NCBI RefSeq assembly: GCF_007860075.1
Contig: NZ_SJPP01000002.1
Coordinates: forward strand, 248,001 to 312,000
Source of the DNA: Symmachiella macrocystis
Lineage (GTDB): Bacteria; Planctomycetota; Planctomycetia; Planctomycetales; Planctomycetaceae
Direction of reading: 5' to 3'
DNA length: 64,000 bases
Shown: positions 48,865 through 59,445 of the stretch, piece by piece
Numbering within the stretch: position 1 is the first letter of the stretch
Layout: each line of letters starts with the position of its first letter
The notes under the pieces: model-generated
Database searches by the model: none
The model's input: the letters and a program-made list of their open reading frames with translations, nothing else
Told to the model about the DNA's origin: nothing
Program-made: the position numbers and the translations under genes

Positions 48865-48884
48865 TAGCCGGTATTTAGCCGGTA
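48865..48884. other. Paired TAGCCGGTA repeats (arm-type sites, element A integrase end)
   Basis: TAGCCGGTA at 48865-48873 and 48876-48884, period 11 bp, 62 bp from the att core. The same pair with period 10 occurs at 59427-59445 at the left end of element C. Position and spacing suit integrase arm-binding sites. Confidence 0.6.
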
Positions 48885-48913
48885 GAAGCTACACTGCTCA
48901 TTCTTGGCATGTC

Positions 48914-48929
48914 ACGTAAATCGTTACGT
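48914..48929. promoter_or_regulatory. Palindrome ACGTAA-N4-TTACGT between arm sites and att 1
   Basis: ACGTAA ATCG TTACGT, 17 bp from the att core. An equivalent palindrome lies 16 bp from att 2 at 59248-59265. The conserved place suggests a binding site for an accessory factor or for control of the integrase promoter. Confidence 0.5.
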
Positions 48930-48946
48930 ATCAGCGAGTTGTCAGG

Positions 48947-48988
48947 TGGAGTATAGGGGACTTGAACCCCTGACCTTCTGGCTGCCAG
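48947..48988 (-). other. Attachment site 1: tRNA-Ala(GGC) 3' half (one mismatch)
   Basis: Read on the minus strand the 42 bases parse as tRNA positions 32-73: loop CTGGCAG with anticodon GGC, stem CCAGA, variable loop AGGTC, T-arm AGGGG-TTCAAGT-CCCCT, acceptor strand with U70 and discriminator A73. The preceding bases do not pair as a 5' anticodon stem, so it is not a complete tRNA. It differs from the copy at 59282 by one base in the acceptor strand. Confidence 0.85.
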
Positions 48989-49092
48989 TCAGTCTTGTGT
49001 ATCAACTACAATTACAATAACCCTTGTTTTATAGGGTTTACGTGCTTGTAATTATACACAATTACACCCCATTTCAAGCAACTTTTGGGGCA

Positions 49093-49112
49093 AGTTGATC
49101 AGAGTTGATCAG
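49093..49112. other. Paired AGTTGATCAG repeats (arm-type sites, element B left end)
   Basis: Two exact copies in tandem, period 10 bp, starting 104 bp inside att 1. Matching AGTTGATCACA repeats lie at the other end of the element at 59202-59223. Confidence 0.65.
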
Positions 49113-49138
49113 AGTGTGACCTGCTGGCTCATGGGCAG

Positions 49139-49221
49139 ACGGTCTACGAAAAAACCGCCGACGCATAACGCCTCACGAACACGGCCCGTGAATCGGAAGA
49201 CATACGGTCTACGAAAAAACC
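49139..49221. repeat. 18-bp direct repeat near the left end of element B
   Basis: ACGGTCTACGAAAAAACC occurs at 49139-49156 and 49204-49221 (65 bp apart), each followed about seven bases later by CATAACG. It could be a protein-binding or transfer-related site. The 49222-49635 interval after it has no recognised gene and probably holds the promoter of the large exported-protein gene. Confidence 0.5.
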
Positions 49222-49635
49222 CAACAGTCCATAACGGGTGTCAGTGGGGCTTCATGCTGCTCTGCGACTCATCGTTGTCGATCACACAGCCCTTACGTCA
49301 CCTGCTGTAAGCAGCCAGGGTGAGTCCGTATGAACGCCCCGCTGGAGCGAAGATTATGACGTGATATGCACGCAGGTCCGCGACTTTTTTCAACGGCTTG
49401 GCTCGAAAGTCTTTGGTGTCACCGCTGGGTTGAAGCTAGGAGTTTGTACTAATAGAAAATCTTCAAAAAAATATCAAACGAATGGACCAATTGTAGAAAT
49501 GGCCATTGAGTTTGGGTAATGTGAATGTCGACCAATTTCGGGCAACGGTGATGGCGCCTGCCGATTTCTTTGTGTTGGTCCTGCGGGCTTGATTTAGCAA
49601 CATTGACCAACACCGCCCAAAGAAAGGCGCCTTAA

Positions 49636-57918: not shown

Positions 57919-58113
57919 GGTGGCGTTCACGTCCCGGTGTTCAGATCAGACTTCCGATATGACGCTTGCAAGAGATTGGACATCCCGCAGCAACGACCCA
58001 TACCGAAAACCCGCCCGGCTACTTCAGGCCGGACTAGACTTAGGATCATCCGCTTTCGGAGTCACCACCGTCGTGCCGAGAATGATATCACAGTCTTTTT
58101 GAAGTGCAAGATG

Positions 58114-59187
58114 TTATCCGTAATTTTTCGCGATTTCTCTCACCTGCGTGTCATCACGTTCGGCGTAAACCTCTGCCATTGATATCGTTGCATGTCCCAG
58201 AATATTTTTTGTGCCTTCGATGCCGACCTGTTGTCGGAGTCGAGTGGCTGCCGTGTGCCGCAGTCGGTGGGGATGAAAAACCTCAACATCTGCCTTCACG
58301 CAGGCACGTTGAATCATGTTGCGGTATGCGTCCCTGTGATAGGGACGGTCGTGATCAAGTCCCCAGTTGTTGCCAGTCGGTCGAAAGAGATAACCACAGT
58401 CGCGTAAGTACGGCTGAATGATGGCTTGTGCCTGTGGTCCTAGGTAAATCACACGCTGCTTATTATGGTGTTCAGTCTTGTGGGAGCTGGGGCGGTATTC
58501 CCAAACCTCACCCCACGTTTCCAGTTCGTCGGCATGCATGTTGAGAACTTCTCCGGGACGCATACCGGTAAGCAACTGAAGCTGAACCATTGCAACCACA
58601 GTCGGCACCAAGTAGGGCAGGGCAGCATTCACGACCGACTCCTCCACAGGGCGTACAGCGTCACTCTCGACGGCATCTGTTCGACCTGCCTGCAATCCAG
58701 GGACGGCTTCCAATGCGGTCAAGATTTCCGGTCGAAGTAGCTCTTCACCGATACCCCATTTGAAGATTCGGCGAATACGTCCGACTTGTTTGTTGATCGA
58801 AGTACGGACCCATCCAAGCTCAATCATTTCCGACCGTACTTGCTTCAACGCCAGTGGTCCGAAGTCGGCAACGTTGGTGTCGCCGTGGACTTCGACCAGC
58901 ACACGGATCGCAGACTGAAAACAGGAAACCTCAGACGTGGGTTTGCCGTTCTTGCGGTAGTGGTCGTGAAGGTGTGGCTCAAAGCGTTCACACAGTTCGG
59001 CAACGGTTAAATCTGGCCGCATACCGGCAGCAAGTGCGTTCTGCTCGGCCTCCCACTGGCGGATCAGCTCGCGGTACTTACGTTTCGATTCTCTCGACCC
59101 GTACTTTCCAAGCCAGTGATTTTTGCCGTTGATGTGGGTCCGTGCCCGGCCCGAAGCTTTGTGCAGGTTGTATCCTGGTTTCCGCAT
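58114..59187 (-). CDS. Tyrosine recombinase (integrase 2) of element B
   Basis: 357 residues, homologous end to end with integrase 1 (MRKPGYNLHKASGRARTHING, HWLGKYGSRESKRKYRELI). Catalytic residues: Arg in TGMRPGEVLNM, Lys in SHKTEHHNK, HRLRHTAATRLR, LGHATISMAEVYAERD with the Tyr. It reads away from att 2; 15 bp upstream of its start begins a pair of AGTTGATCACA repeats that it probably binds. Confidence 0.94.
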   Translation of the reverse strand: MRKPGYNLHKASGRARTHINGKNHWLGKYGSRESKRKYRELIRQWEAEQNALAAGMRPDLTVAELCERFEPHLHDHYRKNGKPTSEVSCFQSAIRVLVEVHGDTNVADFGPLALKQVRSEMIELGWVRTSINKQVGRIRRIFKWGIGEELLRPEILTALEAVPGLQAGRTDAVESDAVRPVEESVVNAALPYLVPTVVAMVQLQLLTGMRPGEVLNMHADELETWGEVWEYRPSSHKTEHHNKQRVIYLGPQAQAIIQPYLRDCGYLFRPTGNNWGLDHDRPYHRDAYRNMIQRACVKADVEVFHPHRLRHTAATRLRQQVGIEGTKNILGHATISMAEVYAERDDTQVREIAKNYG

Positions 59188-59201
59188 GCTGTGCCTCCCT
59201 T

Positions 59202-59223
59202 AGTTGATCACAAGTTGATCACA
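59202..59223. other. Paired AGTTGATCACA repeats (arm-type sites, element B integrase end)
   Basis: Exact tandem copies at 59202-59212 and 59213-59223, period 11 bp, ending about 60 bp from att 2. They share the AGTTGATCA core with the pair at 49093-49112, which has period 10. Confidence 0.65.
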
Positions 59224-59247
59224 AGGTTGCACTGGCAAATTCCAGGT

Positions 59248-59265
59248 AACGTAAGTTCTTACGTT
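59248..59265. promoter_or_regulatory. Palindrome AACGTAA-N4-TTACGTT between arm sites and att 2
   Basis: Same design and spacing to att (16 bp) as the palindrome at 48914-48929 of element A, although the arm repeats of the two elements differ. Probably an accessory-factor or operator site. Confidence 0.5.
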
Positions 59266-59281
59266 TCAACCGCTTAAGAAG

Positions 59282-59323
59282 TGGAGGATAGGGGACTTGA
59301 ACCCCTGACCTTCTGGCTGCCAG
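59282..59323 (-). other. Attachment site 2: tRNA-Ala(GGC) 3' half
   Basis: The same 42-base tRNA positions 32-73 as at 48947, without the acceptor-strand mismatch. The bases preceding the anticodon loop (GCTTT) cannot pair with CCAGA, so no full tRNA is present here. The orientation predicts that the intact tRNA-Ala gene lies beyond the right edge of the window, at the far end of element C. Confidence 0.88.
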
Positions 59324-59426
59324 AAAGCGCCGCTGCTTCTACGGCGTTTGATACCCCTACAAATATAGGGGTTTGCTCGCACTAGAATACACTCGACTTC
59401 ACCCAATTTCAACCGTTTCAGACCCT

Positions 59427-59445
59427 TAGCCGGTAGTAGCCGGTA
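59427..59445. other. Paired TAGCCGGTA repeats (arm-type sites, element C left end)
   Basis: TAGCCGGTA at 59427-59435 and 59437-59445, period 10 bp, 103 bp inside att 2. The same nonamer with period 11 lies beside integrase 1. This marks elements A and C as one family. The rest of the gap to 59756 shows no gene. Confidence 0.6.

Follow-up and report, generated by a model that had tools for sequence, protein, structure and literature searches.

A covarying integrase leader and complementary far ends in tandem tRNA-borne elements of Symmachiella macrocystis: a candidate RNA switch

How a mobile element produces integrase when it is needed, and silences it after integration, is a basic question for any such element, and it is raised by a stretch of 64,000 nucleotides (nt) from Symmachiella macrocystis (contig NZ_SJPP01000002.1, C2:248001-312000 in contig coordinates of a 7.6-Mb genome; hereafter the window), where integrative elements lie in tandem at a tRNA-Ala(GGC) gene. 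By computation we show that these elements and their relatives carry arm-type sites, a covarying leader ahead of the integrase gene (int) and a far end whose complementarity to that leader is specific to each element. It is quite possible, if just short of likely, that they represent a widespread class of RNA switch, in which joining of the element ends makes a transcript that opens the int start, and integration at the tRNA gene swaps one strand of the pairing and closes it again, the att junction being read as RNA with no ligand or protein involved.

Read from right to left, the locus begins with an intact tRNA-Ala(GGC) gene (C2:316731-316804, beyond the window) and element C (9.4 kb). The attachment (att) copy att2 separates C from element B (10.3 kb), and beyond att1 follows integrase A, with element A present at least in part. 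All tRNA fragments, integrase genes, leader strands, far-end segments, promoter-like sites and arm sites given below lie on the minus strand. The two tRNA 3' fragments of the original prediction are real, and by their coordinates measure 43 bp rather than 42 bp: att1 (48946..48988) marks the A/B junction and att2 (59281..59323) the B/C junction, with a single mismatch between them. The 3' part of the intact gene is a third copy, identical to att2, and three genomic copies were found at E<=0.001. Integrases A (47765..48847), B (58114..59187) and C (L013:4551-5633, outside the window) are co-oriented, and each lies immediately 3' of the tRNA or of a tRNA 3' fragment.

The leader between tRNA and integrase gene

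Protein searches detected the integrase family in 53 of the 392 genomes covered in the phylum (E<=1e-40) and its N-terminal domain in 104 of 170 genomes from the host's own family (E<=1e-5, the window's own genome included). Stretches fetched around part of the integrase-positive genomes yielded 336 integrase open reading frames (ORFs), reduced to 173 records, of which 127 were kept; a tRNA T-arm lay directly upstream in 112 of these and a usable leader could be taken from 102.

The leader has a recurrent layout, consisting of a hairpin IR1, a second hairpin IR2, and then P3, in which the segment that follows IR2 is paired with the bases before the int ATG. In element A these correspond to IR1 at 48914..48929, an IR2 position that is weak in A (48896..48908), and P3 strands at 48885..48894 (5') and 48853..48862 (3'), the latter directly ahead of the int start codon. 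In element B, IR1 (59248..59265) and IR2 (59232..59245) are followed by a 5' P3 strand at 59223..59232, which is imperfectly paired, and a 3' strand at 59191..59201, again directly ahead of the start codon. The palindrome ACGTAA-N4-TTACGT, which the original prediction counted as part of the arm-site geometry, is IR1 of element A and lies within IR1 of element B (59249-59264), and belongs to the leader as its first hairpin. It ends 16 nt ahead of att in A and B alike. A strictly constant distance was rejected as a rule, as some relatives have a terminator-like hairpin between the tRNA and IR1; the counterpart of the palindrome starts 14-22 nt past the tRNA, at 19 or 20 in 62 of 92 relatives. 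The leaders with a terminator-like hairpin between the tRNA end and IR1 (L075, L086, L134, L136, L184 and L185) perhaps carry a tRNA terminator along with the element.

A strong hairpin (score >=4.5) was found in the first part of 92 of the 102 leaders, compared to 25 after shuffling. IR1 (start at 14-23, at least 5 of 6 pairs) was present in 67 leaders vs 16.6 shuffled, IR2 (start at 34-42, 5 of 5) in 55 vs 6.0 shuffled, and P3 with at least 7 of 8 Watson-Crick pairs in 38 vs 15 expected. The stems diverge while pairing is kept: among arms placed by choosing for pairing (at least 4 Watson-Crick pairs), we counted 68 distinct IR1 5' arms in 92 leaders and 49 distinct IR2 arms in 93. When 50 leaders, out of 62 preselected for pairing among the 102, were aligned, 12 of 12 pairs had two-sided changes and the covariation score was 0.531, vs at most 0.135 when the alignment was slid; the proportion of pairs formed, 85.9%, is inflated by the preselection. 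RNAalifold alone recovered four IR2 pairs and none of IR1. A covariance model of the leader, R1, had matches in 105 of the 170 genomes from the host's family (E<=0.01, short calibration). Of its first 70 listed matches, 50 preceded a listed integrase match by 38-81 nt on the same strand, the other 20 having no partner among the integrase matches listed.

The same structure was found in a second collection, in which 79 loci were kept from the best 80 of 176. These were mostly labelled planctomycete, several just 'bacterium', with single bins labelled Hydrogenedentota (two), Verrucomicrobia, Nitrospira and Vicinamibacteraceae; planctomycete isolates among them are Bythopirellula polymerisocia Pla144, Lacipirellula limnantheis I41 and Rhodopirellula maiorica SM1. 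They provided 52 new integrases (26 were already known and one lay near a contig end), three of which lacked a T-arm; in the remaining 49, IR1 (at least 5 of 6) was present in 31 and IR2 (5 of 5) in 35. No Rfam family matched the leader in window positions 47000-60000, in 17 loci or in 4 further loci, and a three-row alignment, A1, had no match in scans of genome contigs or viral contigs. Taken together, we are highly confident that the leader is a real conserved structure. Such a covarying leader, for which these searches gave no Rfam match, can be used to mark tRNA-borne elements that have an integrase of this family.

Far ends complementary to their own leaders

Both ends were placed for 31 integrases and, by hand, for element C, giving 32 elements. 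Their att cores in most cases extend from the anticodon as far as the end of the tRNA, in several from the T-loop only, and for L086, L113, L125, L136 and L185 the ends rest on a short T-loop and acceptor match (26-31 of 45 letters), possibly to another tRNA; the arm word of the integrase end recurs in the far ends of L113, L136 and L086, and hardly in those of L125 and L185.

The approximately 55 nt that precede the core at the far end show complementarity to the element's own leader, with a duplex energy of -35.4 kcal/mol vs -28.6 kcal/mol for swapped far ends (0 of 20,000 permutations as good). In the 11 elements unseen when the hypothesis arose, which form the strict held-out set (a looser set of 15 includes four seen earlier), the values were -39.3 and -31.5, again with 0 of 20,000 permutations. 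In the window, the complementary segment of element B lies at 48994..49008, opposite its leader and arm region, and that of element C at 59332..59344, opposite its leader positions +54 to +67. The strongest part of the pairing, which we call Hb, joins the far end to the leader stretch after IR2 (+48 to +76) and reached at least 8 of 9 pairs in 16 of 26 elements vs 8% of swapped combinations, 6 of the 32 having been left out of these counts for inserts or odd spacing. Ten of the 32 elements share a recurrent geometry, in which the far-end stretch complementary to leader positions of about +55 to +70 stops 21-27 nt short of the core. A weaker helix between the last 18 nt of the far end and leader +3 to +32 was found in 9 of 26 (vs 8% swapped), and the far-end stretch from -110 to -66 had no excess of complementarity to the leader (2 of 26 vs 5% swapped). 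The second collection added five more bounded elements, in three of which own pairing was strong, with 0, 1 and 3 of 36 swapped far ends as good. A tRNA-like structure of the far end was also considered and rejected, as tmRNA matches scored 18.4 and 17.7 bits, under the cut-off of 47.

It could be argued that only the arm-type sites matter and that leader structure and far-end complementarity are due to chance. The arm sites are indeed well supported (see below), but the covariation, shuffling and permutation results all contradict chance, and the held-out test in 11 elements already spoke against it, so that we regard this explanation as extremely improbable. The far-end:leader pairing is, in our judgement, very likely real.

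A second question is whether this pairing is made by RNA. Since the stems had been picked by Watson-Crick pairs alone, G-U and A-C mismatches were treated equally, and the two can be compared. Internal mismatches in IR1, IR2 and P3 were G-U in 18 cases, A-C in 3 and other in 25 (G-U vs A-C, p 0.0015, a value too good given that the rows are related, as holds for every p value of this comparison), and those in the far-end:leader helices were G-U in 11, A-C in 4 and other in 19. This excess of G-U supports, without proving, RNA on the int-sense strand. The strongest competing explanation acts at the level of DNA: IR1, IR2 and the repeats between far end and leader would be dyad sites for element-specific proteins (an excisionase, an accessory factor or the integrase), or folds of single-stranded DNA during recombination. 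All the inverted repeats fall inside attP, and G-U pairs are scarce overall, with 26 G-U vs 16 A-C when all stem cells are counted (p 0.16, not significant) and 4 vs 2 in Hb alone. By energy the antisense strand is equally complementary (own vs swapped, -34.1 vs -27.6 and -31.7 vs -25.3), so that a DNA-level inverted repeat is compatible with the data. Against such sites stand the preference of internal mismatches for G-U on the int-sense strand (18 vs 3 and 11 vs 4), and the fact that the stems are free to vary (68 distinct IR1 arms in 92) while loop and flanks keep strand-specific letters. We consider the DNA-level explanation unlikely, and infer that leader and far end act as RNA.

A predicted switch between circle and integrated form

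How could such pairing affect integrase production? In the model that we favour, the integrase would be placed by element-specific arm sites at both element ends. In the excised circle, a promoter at the far end would give a transcript running through far end, tRNA fragment, leader and int, the first approximately 45 nt of which would pair with the leader, chiefly through Hb with the segment after IR2. Hb would compete with P3 and thereby expose the int start codon. In the integrated form the tRNA gene lies upstream instead, so that Hb could not form, P3 would shut the start codon and int expression would be low. Where elements lie in tandem, transcription of int from the far-end promoter of the neighbouring element would bring in a mismatched far end, and the leader is predicted to stay closed.

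Promoter-like sites are candidates for the start of such transcripts. Element B has TTGCTT..TATAAT directed toward att1 (49051..49081), where spacing is not ideal and the scan chose an overlapping site, and element C has TTGAAA-N17-TATTCT directed toward att2 (59384..59412). In 21 of the 32 elements a promoter-like -35 lies 70-82 nt ahead of the core, a placement from which the transcript would start near the onset of the complementarity. We infer these start sites, and with them the on/off effect on translation.

Predicted folding is consistent with this scheme. When folding was limited to the stage before the start codon is made, the own far end paired with the leader above the swapped mean in 29 of 32 elements (p 8e-8); swapped far ends were as good as the own one in 2 of 31 cases for B and 1 of 31 for C, where own pairing reached 0.29 vs 0.14 swapped. 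In the 30 elements with a clear start codon (2 of the 32 were left out), pairing of the start region with the leader was 0.63 with the integrated upstream sequence and 0.47 in the circle, whereas swapped far ends gave 0.63 and shuffled far ends 0.64 (circle vs integrated, p 2e-5; circle vs swapped, p 0.001). Eleven of the 30 elements, among them B (0.54 to 0.15), L163, L030, L130 and L185, dropped by at least 0.1 from integrated form to circle.

Several results weigh against this reading. The remaining 19 of 30 elements change by less than 0.1, element C is unchanged (0.74 to 0.73; one surplus base persists at its modelled junction), and 3 of the 32 elements go opposite to the predicted direction. 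In total unpairedness of the start region, the circle showed no significant difference from the integrated form (p 0.18) and a significant one from swapped far ends (p 0.0006), and a test on 13 elements gave p 0.08 for circle vs swapped and p 0.008 for circle vs integrated. For B, the 'integrated' upstream sequence is the far end of C and not a tRNA; the comparison without B gives p 4e-5. The recurrent Hb geometry is limited to 10 of 32 elements, a helix of 8 of 9 was listed in none of 8 of the 32, B included, and two of the five further bounded elements had no matched pairing (18 and 32 of 36 swapped far ends as good). The far-end promoter score is modest (8.25 vs 7.5 on the reverse strand and 7.56 shuffled), and model R1 reported neither the A nor the B leader at E<=0.01.

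The small change in start-region pairing in those 19 elements is what would be expected if the leader were an ordinary structured 5' untranslated region which constantly limits int translation, or which stabilises or processes a tRNA-int transcript, the far-end complementarity being used otherwise, for example in control of readthrough at the junction. That tRNA and int are co-oriented fits this alternative as well. It does not account for a far-end complementarity that is element-specific and strongest on the leader stretch after IR2, and we judge it rather improbable. On these predicted folds, the best mechanism that we can offer is a switch in the leader, with int open in the circle and closed once the element has integrated, and we lean modestly toward it. 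If the model is true, the answer to when integrase is made would be built into both element ends as complementary RNA.

Arm-type sites, element genes and known systems

The repeat pairs at the element ends have the placements and distances of the original prediction, all of which could be reproduced from coordinates. AGTTGATCA occurs four times on the plus strand of the window (49093, 49103, 59202 and 59213) and TAGCCGGTA also four times (48865, 48876, 59427 and 59437), the reverse complement of each being absent. In the int sense, the integrase-end pairs are two copies of TACCGGCTA in element A (48865..48884) and two of TGATCAACT in element B (59202..59221), with a period of 11 and ending 61 nt (A) and 59 nt (B) ahead of att; the distal pairs of B (49093..49111) and C (59427..59445) have a period of 10 and start 104 nt (B) and 103 nt (C) past att. 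Since 301 different 9-mers reach at least four copies on the plus strand of the window, the copy number of the repeats is by itself not rare; their placement is. The left end of element A was not found; TAGCCGGTA has no further copy in the window, and the 20 kb leftward contain it on neither strand. The grouping of C with A holds, the two sharing the repeat pair and the palindrome, and integrase C being 98% identical to integrase A (integrase B, approximately 60%).

Across the 32 elements, the integrase-end repeat recurs at the far end of the same element, mostly 105-165 nt inside. The longest word common to both ends averaged 9.97 nt for matched and 6.88 nt for mismatched ends (0 of 20,000 permutations), and was at least 8 nt long in 26 of 32 elements vs 26% of mismatched ends. 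Covariation of arm sites with the integrase N-terminal domain, a check that the original prediction had proposed, was found in 96 relatives: with the rest of the protein controlled for, arm similarity tracks the N-terminal domain (partial Mantel r 0.34, 0 of 300), and it does not track the rest of the protein once that domain is controlled for (r 0.045, 37 of 300). The model of integrase B (mean pLDDT 89) begins with strands 7-9, 14-19 and 22-28 and a helix at 32-53, and this N-terminal domain models as a lambda-type arm-binding domain. Recurrence at both ends, covariation and the lambda-like model thus bear out the prediction of arm-type sites with two specificities within one recombinase family, for which binding itself is predicted; that the repeats behave as arm-type sites is well supported. 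The fixed periods of 10 and 11 bp did not survive as a family rule. Periods vary among relatives, and the integrase-end pairs of the 96 are inverted in 63, direct in 19 and tied in 14; with the ties left out, direct or inverted orientation is in line with the integrase tree, on which it changes 6 times compared to 17.2 after shuffling (0 of 500). The relatives provide a natural set of arm sites and arm domains that can be used for working out arm recognition.

Both A and B match PF00589 (E 4e-20 each). Foldseek with the whole integrase model returned lambda integrase as top structural match (TM 0.58), a sequence search of solved structures matched Xer recombinases only, and phage records contained distant integrase matches alone (5 records, at most 28% identity). 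The best explanation is that each element encodes a lambda-type tyrosine integrase whose site of recombination lies in the 3' half of a tRNA gene, the targets in 56 scanned loci including Ala, Pro, Gln, Lys, Val, Gly, Arg, Met, Trp and Asn tRNAs. Elsewhere, an apparent truncated tRNA fragment precedes the integrase in L052, L067, L070 and L085, where an intact tRNA was not called, which suggests that tandem or nested insertion at tRNA genes occurs among other relatives. The genome of the window also contains a broken relative of the integrase with a leader match (G000:C1:3335317-3335912; L007, L009).

Element B encodes a DUF1580-like protein (57528..57827, minus strand), a candidate excisionase by inferred function, which scored 24.2 bits against a Pfam cut-off of 24.4, the copy of C scoring 25.2 bits. 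Element B (features at 53797-54297, 54953-57433 and 49636-53706) further encodes a small-terminase-like protein (phrog_83), a D5-type primase and a 1356-aa protein with golvesin-C, PKD and weak PI-PLC-like matches, which is probably cargo. Element C (window 59324-64000 and L013:1-5731) carries genes for a small terminase, an HNH nuclease, an HK97-type major capsid protein, a D5-type primase, DUF1580 and the integrase; a large terminase was not among its searched ORFs. Judging from this gene content within 9.4 kb, element C resembles a capsid-bearing phage satellite. The left parts of B (49146-49172) and C (60421-60447) share a perfect 27-nt inverted copy, ACGAAAAAACCGCCGACGCATAACGCC, which overlaps a 21-nt stretch found at both 49136 and 49201.

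Lambda-type integrases, among which those of Tn916 and L5 also have an arm-binding domain, usually have paired arm sites. The attP design, for which the original prediction knew of no description, is in this respect known, as are circle-specific int promoters. As with lambda Int, the top structural match, the arm sites flank the core on both sides and are unlike the core sequence. Two features differ from lambda-type integrases: here the arm sequence differs between relatives as close as A and B, and most of the 96 integrases typed have an inverted integrase-end pair, a minority a direct one. For the leader, a literature search that covered few subscription papers found no comparable integrase leader, which is weak evidence of absence.

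In ICEclc, the promoter Pcirc acts from the far end in the circle only. Table 1 of PMC2892462 lists Pcirc at 102,729 for intB13. The present elements differ in that RNA pairing across the junction would be added, and in that their promoter is a sequence match. Control of int by RNA in a manner that depends on att recombination is known from sib retroregulation in lambda, which acts 3' of int through mRNA decay; here the leader is 5' of int and the predicted effect is on initiation. No sib-like regulatory RNA was seen 3' of int, a side covered through Rfam matches only. The int-alpA RNA (RF02996) had no leader match at E<=1 in window positions 47000-60000, and in relatives it matched 3' of int, at a distance of 17-19 nt (L061:1114-1185 and L023:969-1037, the latter the same place as L110). 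The int-alpA RNA thus occurs in the same kind of tRNA-borne element, as seen in these two relatives, whereas the leader described here lies upstream of int and is not matched by that model.

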